From assembly GCA_017451625.1 (NCBI GenBank), contig JAFTNY010000052.1, positions 1 to 34,451 of the forward strand: a stretch of 34,451 nucleotides of DNA. The letters run 5' to 3'. Of the stretch, positions 1,157-33,702 are shown piece after piece. The stretch comes from Alphaproteobacteria bacterium. GTDB taxonomy: Bacteria; Pseudomonadota; Alphaproteobacteria; Rs-D84. Below the pieces are notes generated by a model, which saw only the letters and a list, made by a program, of their open reading frames with translations, searched no databases and had not been told where the DNA came from. Numbering within the stretch: position 1 is the first letter of the stretch; every line of letters starts with the position of its first letter. The translations under genes were made by a program, and so were the position numbers.

Positions 1157-1478
1157 TGGATTAAAATATATGTGGATGATGGTTATGTTTGATTTACCAA
1201 CCGAGACAAGACAGGAACGTCGCGCCGCAAGCCAGTTTCGCAACTTTCTGCAAGACATGGGATTTTCGATGGCACAATATTCAGTCTATGTGCGCTTTAC
1301 TGGCACGCGCGAAAATTCACAAAAATATGTCCGCGCGGTCCAACGGAACAACCCATGCACAGGGGATGTAAACATATTGTTCTTTACAGACACACAATTT
1401 GGCGACATTATACATCTGGACAAGACAGACGCACCAACCGCGTTGGCGCGTCGCCCCGACCAATTACAGTTGTTTTAA
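1134..1478 (+). CDS. cas2: CRISPR-associated protein Cas2
   Basis: Cas2 is the structural partner of Cas1 in spacer acquisition. The product is about 114 residues, typical for type II Cas2. It shows the ferredoxin-like signature WMMVMFDLPTETRQERR, with the conserved Asp at the end of the first strand, followed by FLQDMGFSMAQYSVYVRF. The start at 1134 overlaps the end of cas1; a second ATG at 1140 gives MSYKTDGLKYMW and is equally possible. The 3' end overlaps the convergent cas9 stop by 15 nt (1464-1478) with no terminator between them, so the two transcripts must run into each other. Confidence 0.95.
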   Translation: MKMSYKTDGLKYMWMMVMFDLPTETRQERRAASQFRNFLQDMGFSMAQYSVYVRFTGTRENSQKYVRAVQRNNPCTGDVNILFFTDTQFGDIIHLDKTDAPTALARRPDQLQLF

Positions 1479-4400
1479 AATCTTTCCTGTTGGACTGACA
1501 TGTACTTTGCGTGCCTTATGCTCTTGCAGCGATGTGGCACTAGCAGCCCACGACTTTGTATCTGCTGCTTCTTTGGCAACATGATGAGGGCGCAGATACA
1601 CAGTCCCCGAACTGCTTATTTTCTTGACCCTGAGTACCATATTAACAGCATCTGTCCGCTCAACCGCACATTGATATTTGACTGCATCTATCAGTCCCTT
1701 GGGCAAATGGGGGTCGTTTTGCGAAAATTCGGCCATTACCATATCATTTATACGCAGGCGCATTACGCGACGTGCAGTGGCGTACTTTTTGCGCCACAGC
1801 GGGGTTCCAGCATTTACCTCGGCATTATAATTTGATATAACGGCCATCTGCCATTTGCCACGTAATTTTGGATAACGTGTGTCGTCACTTCTGATTTCAA
1901 AGATATCTGCACAGAAATTATTGCCACCTACGTACCATTTATATGCACGACGTGCCGCAGCACGATATTGGGCCAGCAAGGCAGATTCAATGTCCTGTTG
2001 GGCACGTTTCTGTTTTTTGTCCGTCATACCAGTTGCGATACCAGCAGCTGTATACCAATCAGCCAGTGTACGATTATATACATTGCGTTCGGCCTTGGTA
2101 CGAAAAACCGGCACATACGACAATGTATCGACATCTGTCTTGTTCATACGCACTTTTTTAATTTGTGGCGTTTGGGCGGCACACCAATCTAGAAAGCGCA
2201 TGCCGATATTAGGTGTCTCATTATTACAACCAGTATTGGCCATAAAAGTCTGCCATGTTGTTTTGTTTACATTTTGCCAGTCTTTTTTGTAGAACTTTTC
2301 CTTGTCCTTGGTTGTTGTTGGCAATGCAACACGATGCGACATTGTTGCCTTGGTACCAGTTTCAAATTCTTCTAAATTATATGCAGTATCTTCGTGCAAC
2401 TGACCCACAGTGCCATCGTCCGCAGGATTTTTGATAGATTGACGATACGATATAACAGTTTGTTCTGTTTTTATCTTGAAATCATAGTAATCAAAGCTAT
2501 CAAAGGGGCGATTTATCCCAACAAATAGTTGTTTACGCTTTTCCTTGGATGGCTTACCAAAATAATTCTCTACACTTGTTGCATTTTTGGATAATGTTTG
2601 TAAATGACCGTTGCTTAAGCACGCGATAACAAACGCATCGATCGCATGATGGATATGATGTCCACGATAGGTTTCGGCATCAGCAGTATCTTTCCACCAA
2701 TTCAACCCCCACATATCACGAAACAGTGCTGTCATCTGCCCAGGCAAGCCATGAACCTTGGACTTGTTTTCACACACGTGTCGTAAATATGTGACCGCCA
2801 TACGGGACATATGACGTGTATCATTCAACGCGCGTGCAATACAATCACCATTGCGATTAAATGTTTCCATAGCATCTTTGCGGAAACGCCATTGGCTGGC
2901 ATCTGGTAACTTTTGCGCCCGTTCCCATATAGCATTATAATCATACGGAGAATTATCAGACGTAAACGCGTCGTATGGCGTCCGATTTCCTTTGAAACGA
3001 TTGGCGTCGACCGCAGAAATAGTCTTGTTTGCCAAAGAGTCATCCAAGGTTTGCGCGTATGGTAAAATATGTTCAATTTCAAAATTACCACTTTTAAACA
3101 ATTCAACAATACTGGTTATTGGTTTGCCTGTATAAACACAACGCCTATTTTGTGGTTCTTTGGCCAAACGTTCCCACAGTTTATACTTTTGAAAATCTTC
3201 GCGAGATGGATGCAAGATACCAATAGATGCCAATTCATCTGCAATTTTGTCGTTTTCTTTTTTATTCTTGTTCTGGGCGGCGACCATATCAGATAAATCT
3301 TTTGCGCCTGACCGCACATCGCGCCCCATTTCGATATTTATTGCATATGGTTTGCCATGAACACCGATTAAATCATTTACAACCGCACGAATTTGATTCA
3401 TAGCAATATGCACCGTTGCATTCATTGTACGATAACGACCGTCACGATCAGCAACCAACAACGAACGCAAAGCAGGCAGGTCGCCATAATATGGCAACAA
3501 TGGCAAATCAGGCGTATCAACAGCAGAATGATTGTAACCTGCCTGCGCGGCAGCCGCATCAAACATCAGGCCAGATTCCAGAAACGGTAACATATTGTTT
3601 ATCGCCAACAACGAAACACTGGCAACATCTTCTTCGGGCGACACAGAAATCACCCGCGTCGCTAAATCTGATGATATATTATATGTTTGAGTTAAGAAAT
3701 CCAGCAACGTGTCATCAGACATAAAATCATCATTAATTTTAGCCAACAGGTCAGATTGTTGTACAGAATCCAAAGAACGCCAAAACCCCAGTGCACCAAC
3801 CAGTGCAAAAGCATTTGCTGTTTTATCTGCATCTATGGCGCGACGACTGTCTGATTCCAAATTAAATTTACACTTGGTGCTATCCAGCAGATGCGCGGCT
3901 TTTAATTGTTTTTTTATTTCAGCAAACGTCAGTTGTCCTTTGACATTTACGGCACTAATGTCGTTCAACGCCATATCTACAATTAGATCGCGTTGCGCTG
4001 GTGTCAATTCTATGGTCTGACCATTTGATACAAATCTTAACTGATTAATTTGCTGTAGCGTGCGCCACTTTTGAAAAGCGGGCTCAAATTTATAGACACG
4101 ATTTTCAGTCGGTTCAAACATACATTTACCAACCTTGGCAGGCAACAAATTGTGCTGAAAAAATATCGCATCGTGAAATTCTTGCCGCATTTGTTCAGAA
4201 ATCCCTTGTGCTGTACAAATACGGTTAAATTCGTCTAGGTACATTTCACGCGTTGGATAAAATGCCCCGTCTTTGATTTTATCGCCATCAAACTGGTTTG
4301 CAAAACGGTATAATTTATTTTGTACTTGGAATTGCGCCAACGTACCGTCGCCGATTGCAGATTGCAATGCGATAGTTGCTGCCTTTAACTTGCCTCCGGC

Positions 4401-4808
4401 ATCGCCACGCGTTTCCTTGCGATTACTTTTAAAGCCGCGACGCAATGCCAAATGAAAGAATACACGCCCCAACTCGGCCGCGGTTAATTTTTCTGACAGA
4501 GCCTTAACACGCAGGCCATATGGGTCTTCTAGCTCCGGATTTTTATTTATATCAAAATTTAGACAGTACTTTTCTATTAACTGCAGTGTACGCTTCTTGC
4601 GTATTTGGACACGTTCACCGCGACGACGCATAGTTCGCGCATTGCGACGCTCTACATTTATCGGGGTATGCGTTTTATCATCACGTCCATCGGGAAATAT
4701 GCGAACGCCCATATCAACCAAGCGCAAAATCTCGTCATTATCACCCAATTCAACGACCGCCCAACCAAGTGATGTGCTGCCTAAATCCAGACCTAATTTA
4801 TACTTCAT
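1464..4808 (-). CDS. cas9: CRISPR-associated endonuclease Cas9, type II-C
   Basis: RNA-guided double-strand DNA nuclease that uses the crRNA:tracrRNA duplex made from this locus. At 1114 residues it falls in the compact II-C range. RuvC-I is LGLDLGSTSLGWAV (catalytic D8). The Arg-rich bridge helix is at about 52-78 (NVERRNARTMRRR). RuvC-II is INIEMGRD (E493). The HNH domain is at about 550-610, with CVYTGKPI, FEIEHILP (H580) and N594. RuvC-III is HHIHHAIDAF (H721, D724). All catalytic residues are present, so the enzyme should cut both strands. The C-terminal 200 or so residues would be the PAM-interacting domain; the PAM cannot be read from sequence alone. The RBS is AAGGG about 9 nt upstream. 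It is transcribed against cas1-cas2 and divergently from tracrRNA, unlike the co-directional cas9-cas1-cas2 order of many II-C loci. Confidence 0.97.
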   Translation of the reverse strand: MKYKLGLDLGSTSLGWAVVELGDNDEILRLVDMGVRIFPDGRDDKTHTPINVERRNARTMRRRGERVQIRKKRTLQLIEKYCLNFDINKNPELEDPYGLRVKALSEKLTAAELGRVFFHLALRRGFKSNRKETRGDAGGKLKAATIALQSAIGDGTLAQFQVQNKLYRFANQFDGDKIKDGAFYPTREMYLDEFNRICTAQGISEQMRQEFHDAIFFQHNLLPAKVGKCMFEPTENRVYKFEPAFQKWRTLQQINQLRFVSNGQTIELTPAQRDLIVDMALNDISAVNVKGQLTFAEIKKQLKAAHLLDSTKCKFNLESDSRRAIDADKTANAFALVGALGFWRSLDSVQQSDLLAKINDDFMSDDTLLDFLTQTYNISSDLATRVISVSPEEDVASVSLLAINNMLPFLESGLMFDAAAAQAGYNHSAVDTPDLPLLPYYGDLPALRSLLVADRDGRYRTMNATVHIAMNQIRAVVNDLIGVHGKPYAINIEMGRDVRSGAKDLSDMVAAQNKNKKENDKIADELASIGILHPSREDFQKYKLWERLAKEPQNRRCVYTGKPITSIVELFKSGNFEIEHILPYAQTLDDSLANKTISAVDANRFKGNRTPYDAFTSDNSPYDYNAIWERAQKLPDASQWRFRKDAMETFNRNGDCIARALNDTRHMSRMAVTYLRHVCENKSKVHGLPGQMTALFRDMWGLNWWKDTADAETYRGHHIHHAIDAFVIACLSNGHLQTLSKNATSVENYFGKPSKEKRKQLFVGINRPFDSFDYYDFKIKTEQTVISYRQSIKNPADDGTVGQLHEDTAYNLEEFETGTKATMSHRVALPTTTKDKEKFYKKDWQNVNKTTWQTFMANTGCNNETPNIGMRFLDWCAAQTPQIKKVRMNKTDVDTLSYVPVFRTKAERNVYNRTLADWYTAAGIATGMTDKKQKRAQQDIESALLAQYRAAARRAYKWYVGGNNFCADIFEIRSDDTRYPKLRGKWQMAVISNYNAEVNAGTPLWRKKYATARRVMRLRINDMVMAEFSQNDPHLPKGLIDAVKYQCAVERTDAVNMVLRVKKISSSGTVYLRPHHVAKEAADTKSWAASATSLQEHKARKVHVSPTGKILKQL

Positions 4809-10928: not shown

Positions 10929-11582
10929 TTAATGATCGTTTGACGACCAGTCGCTGCTGCTGGGGACATATGGACATGGACCTGCTTGATAGCCACTGCC
11001 GATTGTATCTGTGAATGGAACGTTGCCAGTAAGCACGCAAGATTCTATTCCTACTGGAAAAGAGGTGAAATTGGTATGACTTGCGTCTGCGGTTCCACCA
11101 TCGGGACATTTTTCGCATACTAACCCCGCCCCGAATGAGCTTCTTGGAACAAGGTATTCAGTTGTCGTATCATCACACCAACATACACCGTAGCTAAGCA
11201 AGGTATCAATGACACCCAATTCAATGGCGCGCTGCGACACCAAAAGAATTTCACCACTAGTATGGATCAAGTCATAAGTGTAAGATGTCGCATACGTAGC
11301 TGCATCTTGCGCCATCATATCGCTATAACTATTAAAAAAACTGCACGCATAACCGACACATCCACCAATATCGCCAAGACAGAAACTGATTACTTCATCT
11401 TTATGTGATTCAAACATAACTAATTCGTCATAGCCATAACACTCATTATTGTTCTGACACAAATCTATCATGCGTGTAATAAGGCACGCATAAAAATCTC
11501 CGGCCCATGTGCACCCATCAGATGTCGCGTTGGCCGAGGTTATTGTCATCGCCAAAGATAAACCGACGTTTAGATTCGGCAC
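10929..11582 (-). CDS. Cysteine-rich secreted protein A (shared leader family)
   Basis: Unrecognised protein of about 217 residues, read from GTG at 11582 (MPNLNVGLSLAMTITSANA). The first 20 residues look like the second half of a signal peptide with an Ala-x-Ala cleavage site after SANA. The mature part holds many cysteines, including CWCDD and CEKCPDGG, and is probably disulfide-bonded in the periplasm or outside the cell. No Shine-Dalgarno precedes the GTG. The frame stays open upstream to a TAA at 11616-11618, and beyond that a 12-codon frame starts at ATG 11654. The first 12 or so codons and the preceding 130 nt closely match gene 19909-20256, while the mature parts differ. The start codon is uncertain. 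Confidence 0.6.
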   Translation of the reverse strand: MPNLNVGLSLAMTITSANATSDGCTWAGDFYACLITRMIDLCQNNNECYGYDELVMFESHKDEVISFCLGDIGGCVGYACSFFNSYSDMMAQDAATYATSYTYDLIHTSGEILLVSQRAIELGVIDTLLSYGVCWCDDTTTEYLVPRSSFGAGLVCEKCPDGGTADASHTNFTSFPVGIESCVLTGNVPFTDTIGSGYQAGPCPYVPSSSDWSSNDH

Positions 11583-11719
11583 AAAGAGAGGGATAAAAAA
11601 TGCAGAAATCTGGGATTAAATTTTTGAGAGTATTGCCGAAGACAATCGTCCCATTGGATTCGGCAGTTATTTTTACCTTGTACACCGTATATTCTAGCGT
11701 CTTTGGCGATTTTTTGCAA
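11583..11719 (-). promoter_or_regulatory. Conserved promoter-leader module A
   Basis: Minus strand: TTGCAA (11714-11719), 17 nt, TAGAAT (11691-11696), then a leader of about 100 nt. It contains a 13-codon frame (ATG at 11654, TAA at 11616-11618) in frame with the cysteine-rich gene and exactly 72 nt before its GTG. It aligns over its whole length with 20257-20393; the 29 nt after the TAA are identical in both. Confidence 0.7.
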
Positions 11720-11778
11720 TATAATTTTTTGCAAGCGCGATTATCATGATGGATTTTAAGAAAATATGTCTGTTGCCA

Positions 11779-19910: not shown

Positions 19911-20256
19911 AATTCTGTGTTGTTTGGCAATAGCAGTGCGACGTGGTACTGCTGGCCGGTGTGGTACGATAGCAATCATATGTACTTTGCGTTGGGCTGC
20001 ATGATGTGTATGTCAGGGTGTATGAGCCAGTACTGTCTGAACCTGTTTCACTGCTGCGATCACATGATGTTTTGCTGCTGTTTATTGTCCAACCAGATGG
20101 GCAAGAATACGTGGTACCAGTAGACCCAGTTGGACAACAACAAGCACCATCCCACAAGGACACCGAGCAGCTTTCAAGAGACAGACATGATACAATCGCA
20201 TGTGCGGATGAAGATATGACCATTGCCAACCCCAAACCGACGTTTAGATTCGGCAC
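19909..20256 (-). CDS. Cysteine-rich secreted protein B (shared leader family)
   Basis: Unrecognised protein of about 115 residues, read from GTG at 20256 (MPNLNVGLGLAMVISSSAHA). The mature part is dominated by Ser, Thr and Cys, with patterns such as CCCPTGSTGTTYSCPSGW and SHCYCQTTQN, suggesting a small disulfide-rich exported protein. The N-terminal segment and everything upstream to the promoter match gene 10929-11582; the mature regions are unrelated. There is no Shine-Dalgarno at the GTG. The frame is open upstream to TAA at 20290-20292, preceded in frame by ATG at 20328. The true start is uncertain for the same reason as in protein A. Confidence 0.6.
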   Translation of the reverse strand: MPNLNVGLGLAMVISSSAHAIVSCLSLESCSVSLWDGACCCPTGSTGTTYSCPSGWTINSSKTSCDRSSETGSDSTGSYTLTYTSCSPTQSTYDCYRTTPASSTTSHCYCQTTQN

Positions 20257-20393
20257 AAAAAGAGGGATAAAAAATGCAGAAATCTGGGATTAAATTTTTG
20301 AATATTTTGCCGATAACAATCGTCCCATTGGATTCGGCGTTTGTTAATCTTGTCTACACCGCATATTTTAGCGCGTTTGACGGATTTTTGCAA
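20257..20393 (-). promoter_or_regulatory. Conserved promoter-leader module B
   Basis: Minus strand: TTGCAA (20388-20393), 17 nt, TAAAAT (20365-20370). A leader follows with a 13-codon frame (ATG 20328, TAA 20290-20292) placed exactly 72 nt before the GTG, as in module A. Promoter boxes, spacing, the small frame and its stop are all kept between the two copies. Confidence 0.7.
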
Positions 20394-20420
20394 TATGTTT
20401 TTGGATGCAATATATAAAAT

Positions 20421-26099: not shown

Positions 26100-27068
26100 C
26101 TATCTGTCGTCGCGACTGGCGATTACTTGTGCGATTTCTTTGAAAAGCGCATCATCTGCCGCATCTGCGTCCGTTATATTTTTCCCTGCCAATCGAGTTG
26201 CAATCACATCCATTTCTTGGTTTGACAAAGATTGCAGGGTCGGGTCGTTTTTATAGCCCGATGCAGATGGGTCAATTTTCGGCTGTGTCGGCTGGGTTGG
26301 CGGTTCCACGACCGGTCTGTCAACGACAGTCAGGCCAGCAAATTTGAAAAAATCCTGTAAATAAGAACCCTCGATTGCATAGACCTTTTTGCTGCGCACC
26401 CTGCCGCCATCCAATGCGACGACCTTTGGTGTCGGCATAACCGCATCGGGATTTTGTTTAGCAAATTCACGTATCATTTTATCCAACGAACCTTCGCTTA
26501 TGTTTTTAGTGAACAAGTACTTTTGTAAGATAGTGTCCGCGGTCAAACCGTTTTGTATTTGTTCTTTGCGTTTTGATATAAAATCATTCGTAAAATCCAT
26601 AAAAGAACCCAATGCGATTTTGCGCAGATAAAAATCCCCTGTATTGGCATCTTGCACGACCATGTCCGGATGAATATCAGCATATTTTTCCAACAGACTA
26701 TTTAGTGTATGCCCATATGGAATTTTAGGTATATAGTCAAATAACTCTGTTTTGAACATAATCGGTTTGCCGATTCTTGCCTGATTATAAGCCACAACAA
26801 ATCTGTTTTTTTCATTTAGATATAACCACAACCTAATATTTTTATATGTTGCTGTAAACTGTTCGTATTTTGTTTTTTTATCTGCGGGCGCACTGTCTGA
26901 CAATTTGCGCGTTGCTGATTCCTTGGCTTTGGTTGATAAAATTATATCGGCATCTTCTGCCCGCGCTTCTGGCGAATGTTCGGACAAAATTTTGCGACGT
27001 CCGTCAACCTGCGCACTTAGCCCTTTAAAAATTTCATAAGCCCCTGCGAATTGTTCTTTTTTATTCAT
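26100..27068 (-). CDS. Hypothetical protein, 322 aa, preceded by structured RNA 1
   Basis: I do not recognise this protein. It has no signal peptide or transmembrane segment and is rich in charged residues and predicted helix. A Pro/Thr/Gln linker (VVEPPTQPTQPK, near residue 252-265) separates a large N-terminal part from a roughly 55-residue acidic helical tail (SLSNQEMDVIATRLAG). The start at 27068 has CGGAG about 12 nt upstream. The gene lies 20 nt downstream of the terminator of the structured RNA at 27089-27261, which probably controls its transcription. It is separated from the ABC exporter by about 170 nt and has no obvious operon partner. Confidence 0.7.
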   Translation of the reverse strand: MNKKEQFAGAYEIFKGLSAQVDGRRKILSEHSPEARAEDADIILSTKAKESATRKLSDSAPADKKTKYEQFTATYKNIRLWLYLNEKNRFVVAYNQARIGKPIMFKTELFDYIPKIPYGHTLNSLLEKYADIHPDMVVQDANTGDFYLRKIALGSFMDFTNDFISKRKEQIQNGLTADTILQKYLFTKNISEGSLDKMIREFAKQNPDAVMPTPKVVALDGGRVRSKKVYAIEGSYLQDFFKFAGLTVVDRPVVEPPTQPTQPKIDPSASGYKNDPTLQSLSNQEMDVIATRLAGKNITDADAADDALFKEIAQVIASRDDR

Positions 27069-27088: not shown

Positions 27089-27261
27089 AAAAAATACCGC
27101 CACAGGAATGACGGTTGGAGGTTCGAAACTATTAACATACGAAAGCGAGCTTATTCAATATATTCACCGCCCTCCAACCACCGCAGGTTGGAGATTTTTT
27201 CGTCCGTTCAGACGCGTATGTTAAACAAGGGTTTCGACGCCCAACACAGTCGCCCTGTGCA
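27089..27261 (-). ncRNA. Structured leader RNA 1 (attenuator-like, new family)
   Basis: Minus-strand RNA of about 173 nt. P0 hairpin: GCACAG/CTGTGT (27244-27260). P1: TCGAAAC with GTTTCGA (27231-27237 and 27123-27129), continued by TTAACATACG with CGTATGTTAA (27215-27224 and 27132-27141). Inside P1 are P2, CGTCT-GAAC-GGACG (27201-27214), and P3, CTCCAACC/GGTTGGAG (27186-27193 and 27172-27179). A CCTCCAACC (27113-27121) can pair instead with the P3 3' arm and overlaps the 5' arm of a terminator (ACCGTC/GGCGGT, 27096-27115, then six T). The same layout with compensating changes is found at 33008-33182. It lies 20 nt before the 26100-27068 gene. Confidence 0.7.
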
Positions 27262-32366: not shown

Positions 32367-32897
32367 TTATTCGGCCATCTGTGGCGCAGGTGCCGGCATT
32401 TCAGGTTCTGCTGGCATTTCTGGGCGTGGGCCATGACGCATGTGCTTTCTGGCGGCCTTGAATTCTTCTTTGGTGACACAGCCGTCTTGGTCAACGTCCA
32501 TCATTGGAATCATTTCTGCCATTTTTTGGCATTTTACAACCAAGCAACCGTTATCAAATTCTGGGCGTGGGCCAAATTTACCCTTTTTGCAGCAGCACAT
32601 TTTCGCCGCAGCAAAACCCAATGCAAAAATAATCAAAATCAAGATTAATTTTTTCAAGAAACGACCAAATGTGCATTTCTTTTTCGCGCATACGCAATCG
32701 CCACCGCATGCACAGCCATGGTCGCAACCACATGGATGCTTTTCAACCACAGGGGCAGCCACAACTTTCTTTGGGGCTGCTGGCTTTTTTGCAGGGGCTT
32801 TCTTTGCAACTGGCTTTTTCGCCGGCGCAGGTTTAGAAACTGTCTTTTTCGCAGATGCTGTTTTTGCAACTGGTTTTTTTGTAGATTTTTCTGCCAT
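32367..32897 (-). CDS. Lys/Ala/Pro-rich, Cys-cluster, EF-hand membrane protein
   Basis: Hypothetical 176-residue protein with an unusual mosaic. Residues 1-52 are a histone H1-like Lys/Ala/Pro-rich repeat region (AKKPVAKKAPAKKPAAPKK). Residues 55-75 form a Cys/His cluster (CGCDHGCACGGDCVC) suited to metal binding. Residues 82-98 are a single transmembrane helix (KKLILILIIFALGFAAA), followed by CCC. Residues 134-145 are a canonical EF-hand loop (DVDQDGCVTKEE, with D134, D136, D138, T142 and E145 at ligand positions), and the tail is Pro/Met/Glu-rich. There is no signal peptide, so the basic part is probably cytoplasmic and the EF-hand periplasmic. GGAAGG precedes the ATG. Function is unknown; calcium binding is inferred from the motif. 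Confidence 0.75.
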   Translation of the reverse strand: MAEKSTKKPVAKTASAKKTVSKPAPAKKPVAKKAPAKKPAAPKKVVAAPVVEKHPCGCDHGCACGGDCVCAKKKCTFGRFLKKLILILIIFALGFAAAKMCCCKKGKFGPRPEFDNGCLVVKCQKMAEMIPMMDVDQDGCVTKEEFKAARKHMRHGPRPEMPAEPEMPAPAPQMAE

Positions 32898-32973: not shown

Positions 32974-33003
32974 TTGCATTTAAGTCAAGATATGATTTAT
33001 CAT
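32974..33003 (+). promoter_or_regulatory. Candidate promoter of structured RNA 2
   Basis: TTGCAT (32974-32979), 18 nt, TATCAT (32998-33003), predicting a start near 33008-33010 at the foot of hairpin P0. It is weaker than the promoter of RNA 1. Confidence 0.4.
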
Positions 33004-33007
33004 TATG

Positions 33008-33182
33008 GCGACATAGGGCGTTCCTGTGTCGGGGTGTCGAAACCCGTTAATGTAGCGTCATGATGACGTAAAAAAGACTCCAATCTTTTGGTTAGAGGGT
33101 TGGTGGAATATACGAATACACCACACTATTACTACATTATAGTTTCGAACCTCCAACCGTCTGAATTTTTCGACGGTTTTTT
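33008..33182 (+). ncRNA. Structured leader RNA 2 (attenuator-like, new family)
   Basis: Plus-strand RNA of about 175 nt with the same architecture as 27089-27261. P0: CGACATAGG/CCTGTGTCG (33009-33031). P1: TCGAAAC (33037-33043) with GTTTCGA (33142-33148), continued by TAATGTAG (33048-33055) with CTACATTA (33132-33139). P2: CGTCAT/ATGACG (33056-33068). P3: CTCCAATC (33078-33085) with GGTTAGAG (33090-33097). P4: TGGTG/CACCA (33101-33123). CCTCCAACC (33150-33158) can pair with GGTTAGAGG (33090-33098). It overlaps the terminator arm AACCGTC (33155-33161), which otherwise pairs with GACGGTT (33172-33178) before a T-run. The next gene starts 31 nt later. Confidence 0.7.
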
Positions 33183-33213
33183 CATTCAAAAAAAATGAAA
33201 AAGGAGGATTGGA

Positions 33214-33702
33214 ATGAAAAAAATACTAATCACCGCAGGGTGTGTGGCGTTGGTTGCCGTAAATGCCAATGCTGCAAAAAACTGTTGTGGCAAATGTACA
33301 TATAATACAAATGATCTGGCGTGTACAGCAAACTGTTGCGACAGCACAGGGACAACCGTAGGTTCACCAGATGCCAATCACATTATATTGGTCACAACAA
33401 AAACAGAAACCGTTACCTGTGCCACCAGCAGCAGTGGCGCTAATTTAGTAACGTGCCGCTCAACATATTCGTGCAAGTGCGAACAAGGATATTATGGTAC
33501 ACCGGTGGCCAACTTAGGCGGCACGTGTTCGGGCACATGCACACGTTGCCCATCATCGGGTGGCGTATATGGCACAACGGCATCCAGTGGTGCAACCAGC
33601 ATCACAGAATGCTATATCCCATCTGGAACGACGCGCACATTTTCAGACAGTGTCGGTTCCGGCACTGAAACAATTACATCAAATTGTTATTATACCAATT
33701 AG
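33214..33702 (+). CDS. Cysteine-rich secreted protein C
   Basis: Hypothetical 162-residue exported protein. The signal peptide MKKILITAGCVALVAVNANA is followed by a Cys-, Ser-, Thr- and Gly-rich mature part (KNCCGKCTYN, CTANCCDSTG, YSCKCEQGYYGTP, CSGTCTRCPSSGG) ending TFSDSVGSGTETITSNCYYTN. The CxxCP-GG spacing recalls EGF- or ephrin-receptor-like cysteine modules. Its tail (FSDSVGSG) resembles FTDTIGSG in the protein at 10929-11582, so they may be distant relatives. It has a strong AAGGAGG ribosome binding site, unlike the other two Cys-rich genes, and is preceded by structured RNA 2. Confidence 0.75.
   Translation: MKKILITAGCVALVAVNANAAKNCCGKCTYNTNDLACTANCCDSTGTTVGSPDANHIILVTTKTETVTCATSSSGANLVTCRSTYSCKCEQGYYGTPVANLGGTCSGTCTRCPSSGGVYGTTASSGATSITECYIPSGTTRTFSDSVGSGTETITSNCYYTN

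Follow-up and report, generated by a model that had tools for sequence, protein, structure and literature searches.

The window, by which we mean the whole 34,451-nt stretch of DNA analyzed here, is predicted to hold two copies of a cis-acting leader RNA that would work as a transcription attenuator (probability roughly 0.85), with function in vivo inferred from sequence. In each copy, strand B can pair either with strand A, forming helix P3, or with strand C, which overlaps an intrinsic terminator. The main result is a three-strand covariation among A, B, and C: judged by the alignments, the competition between the two pairings, which the initial annotation had inferred, is under selection.

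Competing helices in the two window RNAs

RNA 2 lies on the forward strand and RNA 1 on the reverse strand, with the following elements.

32974–33003 (+): putative RNA 2 promoter, −35 TTGCAT at 32974–32979 and −10 TATCAT at 32998–33003
33009–33031 (+): 5′ hairpin, where the transcript probably begins, from sequence, fold, and the same place in the copies inspected
33031–33046 (+): P0 hairpin, covarying; its loop displays a1 (TCGAAAC, 33037–33043) with a U-N-R motif
33048–33055 (+): strand b1, the 5′ strand of P1; P1 pairs are of several types
33056–33068 (+): P2 hairpin, variable and missing from some copies
33078–33085 (+): strand A, 5′ arm of P3 and partner of B; covariation, all 8 pairs changed on both sides
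33090–33098 (+): strand B, 3′ arm of P3 and partner of A or C; covariation
33102–33122 (+): P4 (GGTG...CACC) with facing AATA motifs, equivalent to the first inner hairpin of RF02221
33126–33142 (+): P5 (CTAT...ATAG), loop holding b′ (33132–33139); covariation
33142–33148 (+): a′ (GTTTCGA), partner of a1 in pseudoknot PK1; all 7 pairs changed on both sides
33150–33158 (+): strand C, partner of B or of the terminator; covariation, B:C being the RF02221 closing stem
33155–33182 (+): intrinsic terminator overlapping C, from sequence; comparable terminators in other copies
33203–33702 (+): ribosome site GGAGG (33203–33207) and gene (33214–33702), from sequence
27089–27243 (−): RNA 1, the second copy, from sequence; RF02221 at 27.1 bits, E 0.0076
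27186–27237 (−): RNA 1 upstream elements a1 27231–27237 and b1 27215–27224, with A at 27186–27193; B follows at 27171–27179
27089–27129 (−): RNA 1 downstream elements a′ 27123–27129, C 27113–27121, and terminator 27089–27115
26100–27068 (−): gene behind RNA 1, 322 aa, without a Pfam family

Reading on from the promoter, the 5′ hairpin comes first, then P0 (its loop displaying a1), b1, P2 where present, strands A and B, P4, P5 (its loop holding b′), a′, and C; the terminator, ribosome site, and gene follow. The gene behind RNA 2 encodes a secreted, Cys-rich protein of 162 aa without a Pfam family. Two details recur in the window and in other copies. The loop of the 5′ hairpin (33009–33031) is small and mostly ends in RTT on a varying stem, and the AATA motifs of P4 (33102–33122) often take the form of GAATA facing GAATA and survive insertion of a hairpin between them.

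Strands B (GGTTAGAGG, 33090–33098) and C (CCTCCAACC, 33150–33158) of RNA 2 lie exactly where the initial annotation had placed them, and they can pair, through eight of nine positions; full nine-base complementarity does not hold, with one C·A mismatch. The reverse complement of this C is GGTTGGAGG, which differs from B at that single base, and P3 of RNA 2 carries the same mismatch as B:C because the changed base lies in B. The perfect 9-bp helix proposed for RNA 1 (B 27171–27179 with C 27113–27121, minus strand) was confirmed. In RNA 2 the terminator pairs AACCGTC (33155–33161) with GACGGTT (33172–33178), followed by a T-run; its 5′ arm was said to overlap C and does so, with AACC common to both, and in RNA 1 the terminator and C have ACC in common. 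The distance of 20–31 nt claimed between terminators and genes agrees with gaps of ~30 nt in RNA 2 (gene start 33214) and ~20 nt in RNA 1 (27068).

Covariation and energetics

We aligned 97 copies from the genus and order together with 59 from more distant genomes, using a covariance model that did not contain B:C. Counts for B:C, P5, and P0 are free of alignment bias because these helices were absent from the aligning model; the covariation tables treat related sequences as separate cells. Among the 59 distant copies, B:C was paired in 98.1% of cells, compared with 88.5% after shuffling and 27–59% when slid by 1–3 columns, and 52 cells had changed on both sides vs 9.8 in shuffled data. The competing helix A:B (P3) was paired in 94.6% of cells with 49 changed on both sides. 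The same distant copies supported the remaining architecture, with a covarying a1:a′ (PK1) at 99.3%, P5 at 94.4% with 12 cells changed on both sides, and P0 at 89.3%. Pairs of B and C differ by lineage (GGTTGGAGG/CCTCCAACC, GGCAGGAAG/CTTCCTGCC, GCGAGAGG/CCTCTCGC, and GGACTGGGAG/CTCCCAGTCC), and strand A changes along with them. Covariation of both helices across distant genomes bears out the earlier proposal that pairing of C with the 3′ arm of P3 excludes P3.

Stacking is stronger in B:C than in A:B in 93/97 near and 45/50 distant copies. Median energies are about −21 kcal/mol for B:C, −18 for A:B, and −10 for the terminator hairpin, so that A:B and the terminator together outweigh B:C alone. 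This balance amounts to a bistable arrangement, which suits a switch. Nested folding of both window RNAs favors A:B plus terminator by ~10 kcal/mol; such folding cannot show pseudoknots, nor B:C together with P1 and PK1. Two criteria for an attenuator are met: the helices are mutually exclusive and both conserved, and the terminator shares a strand with the alternative helix and stands directly before a sense gene.

Promoter, terminator, and downstream genes

Counting from the GGGG of P0, 116/155 copies have a −10-like box between −50 and −28, compared with 13–16% in shifted control windows. Its position 28–50 nt upstream of P0 places the transcript start at the 5′ hairpin. A terminator overlapping C is present in 86/95 near and 30/46 distant copies, in support of the claim that pairing of C with the 3′ arm of P3 also excludes the terminator. 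In 132/156 copies the next 75 nt include a start codon with a ribosome site, the median distance being 27 nt. Together with the promoter before the RNA, this proximity favors control by readthrough, as the initial annotation had it, with regulation in vivo remaining an inference.

Signal-peptide-like proteins make up 84 of 128 distinct downstream products, against 102 of 323 background ORFs; the secretion test was crude and home-made, and gene calls were imperfect in both protein sets. Families behind the RNA include outer-membrane barrels, Surface_Ag_2, opacity-type porins, small HTH proteins, superinfection immunity proteins, and glycosyl- and Stealth transferases, with most proteins lacking any family. 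In some places tandem leader copies, each with its own terminator, precede a single gene (loci L066 1019–1647 (−), L020 1444–1799, and L071 1501–1872).

No leader peptide was conserved: only 49/131 copies have a start codon downstream of B, and ORF lengths are scattered. A trp-type peptide-leader attenuator was rejected in the absence of a conserved leader ORF.

The window has other features of its own. CRISPR repeats at the contig edge (1–97) are followed by Cas1- and Cas2-like ORFs (191–1156 and 1134–1478) and a compact Cas9 of 1114 aa (1464–4808; HNH_4, RuvC_III, Cas9_a). A 193-nt stretch occurs in two places (11536–11728 and, on the minus strand, 20210–20402) with 81% identity. Each occurrence covers the DNA ahead of a gene and the gene's first codons, the two genes encoding different secreted proteins that start with GTG; this is another conserved upstream element, with no relation to the leader RNA. 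An ORF at 32367–32897 (−) fuses a Lys/Ala/Pro-rich, histone-like N-terminus to an EF-hand-like end.

Family size and distribution

RNA 1 and RNA 2 are members of an unnamed RNA family. A DNA search detected further sites with the same elements in this genome and several in each genome of the same genus. Searches with a covariance model (R1) built from 20 copies, which give lower bounds, found about 20 copies in this 0.9-Mb genome (at least 17 at E ≤ 1e-5), at least about 28 in a complete 1.0-Mb genome, and up to at least 51 per genome across ‘Candidatus Enterousia’ and its order. The RNA was present in 132/142 genomes of the order sample. In the class sample it was found in 21/289 genomes, mostly from other families and scattered within Alphaproteobacteria, and the phylum sample yielded only this genus and one weak match. 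The exact core motif occurs in records of alphaproteobacterial assemblies from gut and termite, and it was absent from IMG/VR when searched for a phage location of the Enterousia type. In the literature Enterousia is assigned to order Rs-D84; its genomes are reduced, and it probably lives as a symbiont or parasite (PMC12306168).

We also observed a second subtype with a long b1-to-A segment (loci L006, L008, L144, L146–L148, L150, L175–L176, L178, and L288). Some of its copies carry a terminator-like hairpin as at sRNA-Xcc1 loci, and B is often GTCAGGAGG.

Relationship to sRNA-Xcc1

At gathering cut-offs Rfam returned no family at the site, including tRNA/tmRNA and riboswitches. For RF02221 (sRNA-Xcc1) this cut-off is 53 bits; the RNA 1 match listed above was obtained at relaxed cut-offs and falls below it, and RNA 2 does not appear among the matches listed. 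Two canonical R1 copies from a sister species (G075) matched at E of about 1e-5, again below the cut-off. We call the window RNAs relatives and not members of RF02221 because they lie below the Rfam threshold. Other copies exceed it: a distant member (L241) scored 66.2 bits and a copy in this genome (L288) 56.4 bits.

The RF02221 structure closes with exactly B:C and encloses P4 and P5, so the window family shows the closing stem with two inner hairpins that is the structural criterion for sRNA-Xcc1. Further likenesses to the window family are a first inner hairpin of the form AATAC...GGAATA, a second with a variable loop, a′ before C, an a1/b1 half upstream, and a gene start shortly after. 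From this evidence we hold with considerable confidence that the 3′ half of the window-type RNA is a diverged, homologous sRNA-Xcc1.

The comparison set was 29 bona fide RF02221 loci, all from other Proteobacteria. Upstream they carry b1 and a hairpin resembling P0, both complementary to the a′/b′ of the same locus; in 24/29 this complementarity exceeds the 95% level of mismatched pairs, and a/b repeats lie near the ribosome site in 14/29. The two groups differ in their terminators. A hairpin with a T-run lies ahead of B at 19/29 sRNA-Xcc1 loci, whereas such an internal terminator-like hairpin occurs in only 7/97 window-family copies; conversely, none of the 29 loci has the C-overlapping terminator. 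Downstream genes differ as well, being mostly for secreted proteins in the window family and for antirepressors and symE at sRNA-Xcc1 loci (BRO, KilA-N, Rha, P22-type antirepressors, and SymE). In two annotated phages, an ant and a KilA-N gene lie ~40 nt beyond sRNA-Xcc1. In Xanthomonas, sRNA-Xcc1 lies upstream of symE in integron cassettes (PMC12444791). Northern blot and end mapping gave sRNA-Xcc1 a length of ~88 nt (PMC2996969); a 2011 title, as cited in PMC12444791, describes it as a trans-acting sRNA.

An attC recombination site was considered, since PK1 contains AAC...GTT and sRNA-Xcc1 is linked to integrons. We judged against it given four outer bases that vary freely as pairs, the promoter and terminator, and the fixed place before genes.

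Proposed mechanism

In our proposal, transcription would begin at the 5′ hairpin from the RNA’s own promoter. The P0 loop would present the short code a1, followed by b1, and the complementary b′ and a′ would be made later. B would pair first with A to form P3; the emerging C could then displace A and pair with B in the Xcc1-type closing stem, removing the 5′ arm of the terminator and letting polymerase enter the gene. Alternatively, A:B would persist and C would fold into the terminator. The Xcc1-type fold and the terminator would exclude each other because Enterousia has the terminator that overlaps C. Comparison of the copies supports the helices A:B, B:C, a1:a′, b1:b′, P0, and P5, the overlap of C with the terminator, and the constant position ahead of genes; regulation of this choice is inferred, without expression data.

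The input may be a released copy from the same locus that occupies a1/b1 of the next transcript, an inference from the pairing code. Codes formed by a and b were all distinct between copies within one genome (16/16 and 24/24). Identity of b′ between copies was 0.27–0.30, near random, vs 0.72–0.82 for B and C, and B, C, and P4 are common to the copies of one genome. The a1 loop carries the U-N-R motif, which forms the U-turn of natural antisense RNAs, in 90/97 near and 51/59 distant copies. Private codes and a U-N-R loop therefore favor RNA pairing at the code as the input; such pairing would act in cis, and perhaps also in trans through RNA transcribed earlier from the same locus, which has not been shown. 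By analogy with C4 we would expect self-limitation, the direction of the effect being not known. Control by antisense pairing at the a/b code instead of by a metabolite remains an inference that we place just short of even odds.

The full reading, an attenuator built from an sRNA-Xcc1/C4-type antisense module with input by code pairing, seems to us slightly favored. Against it stand the lack of expression data, the absence in Enterousia of the classical C4 target (a/b repeats near the ribosome site), the low RF02221 score of RNA 1 and the unlisted RNA 2, and the preference of nested folding for A:B plus terminator. Variable helices are also found in riboswitches, and the AATA motifs of P4 are conserved in sequence, as a binding site would be.

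Alternative explanations

The strongest rival is a riboswitch of a new class, in which P0/PK1, P1/P5, and P4 would fold into an aptamer. Binding of a small molecule or ion would then favor one of the helices B:C and A:B and so adjust a regulon of secreted proteins. A compact pseudoknotted fold that overlaps a terminator, the conserved AATA internal loop of P4, and many copies before functionally related genes (the signal-peptide excess above) would all fit. However, the 3′ half is homologous to sRNA-Xcc1, which has the same a1/b1 and a′/b′ pairing before antirepressor and symE genes; the downstream genes suggest no metabolite, Rfam gave no riboswitch match, and c-di-GMP is disfavored in the absence of a GGDEF protein from 59 genus genomes. 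We regard a riboswitch as unlikely. The initial annotation thus stands in its reading of attenuation, and the ligand-type input that it implied is less likely than antisense pairing, given the kinship of the 3′ half with sRNA-Xcc1.

An RNA-binding antiterminator protein might instead read P4 or B and set the switch across the regulon. Uniformity of B, C, and P4 within a genome and their divergence between lineages are what such a protein would produce, but lineage-wise change is also explicable by descent. No candidate protein emerged, with no CsrA match above cut-off in the 59 genomes, and we consider this explanation improbable. Both c-di-GMP and CsrA were rejected as inputs, neither GGDEF nor CsrA being found above cut-off in the genus.

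Fewest grounds remain for a free trans-acting sRNA of the sRNA-Xcc1 kind, whose 3′ end would be the terminator while the gene was expressed otherwise: RF02221 has been described as trans-acting and every copy comes with a promoter and a terminator, but the sense gene start (median 27 nt, 132/156 copies) leaves no space for a second promoter, a simple sRNA has no need of B:C covariation in competition with A:B and the terminator, and a private code in every copy also speaks against it.

Comparison with C4 antisense RNAs and other attenuators

Regulation is usually lost in reduced genomes; here, in a 1-Mb genome, up to 50 or more genes have the same RNA module in front of them, mostly genes for secreted or outer-membrane proteins of bacteria regarded as obligate symbionts or parasites (PMC12306168). 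Probably the old antisense fold has turned into an antiterminator in Enterousia, with the code repeats at the ribosome site lost and a C-overlapping terminator gained. A broader and more speculative account, which we consider less likely than not, combines two ideas: that a phage-type antisense RNA was domesticated in gut symbionts with reduced genomes and multiplied into dozens of self-recognizing attenuators with private codes, one per gene, controlling secreted and surface proteins, and that Rfam sRNA-Xcc1 is the processed 3′ half of a C4-type leader and not primarily a trans sRNA.

The C4 RNA is excised from its leader, and its a′ and b′ pair with a and b around the antirepressor start (PMC5320573, PMC12197685). 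We infer that sRNA-Xcc1, too, has the look of a C4-type antisense leader, placed before symE and phage antirepressor genes. An Rfam orphan labeled a trans sRNA would thereby be tied to the antisense logic that C4 applies to phage antirepressors. In the Rfam output RF02221 has no clan and c4-2 has one. At locus L272 a P22-type antirepressor is preceded by an sRNA-Xcc1, and a c4-2 RNA (2890–2958 (−), below cut-off) lies ~1.3 kb from the latter RNA, so that this neighborhood holds two related RNA types.

C4 of phages P1/P7 and c4-2 (RF02944) resemble the window RNAs in a closing stem with two hairpins and variable a′/b′, and C4 and the Xcc1 relatives are alike as leaders of antirepressor-type operons. 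Many-copy chromosomal versions of C4 are known in Acinetobacter (PMC5320573). The GGT at the start of B resembles the C4 GGW site (PMC5320573), which is only suggestive, RNase P processing not having been shown. The window RNAs differ in having no Rfam C4 match and in their control point, which is the ribosome site in C4 and the terminator here. C4-type a/b repeats near the ribosome site exceeded the chance threshold in only 2/95 and 3/46 Enterousia-type copies, itself a chance-level frequency, so the criterion for C4 was not met.

Compared with trp-type and riboswitch-type attenuators, the window RNAs are without a leader peptide, a known ligand, or an Rfam riboswitch match. They share with these attenuators the three-strand choice, with an anti-antiterminator, an antiterminator, and a terminator competing ahead of the gene.
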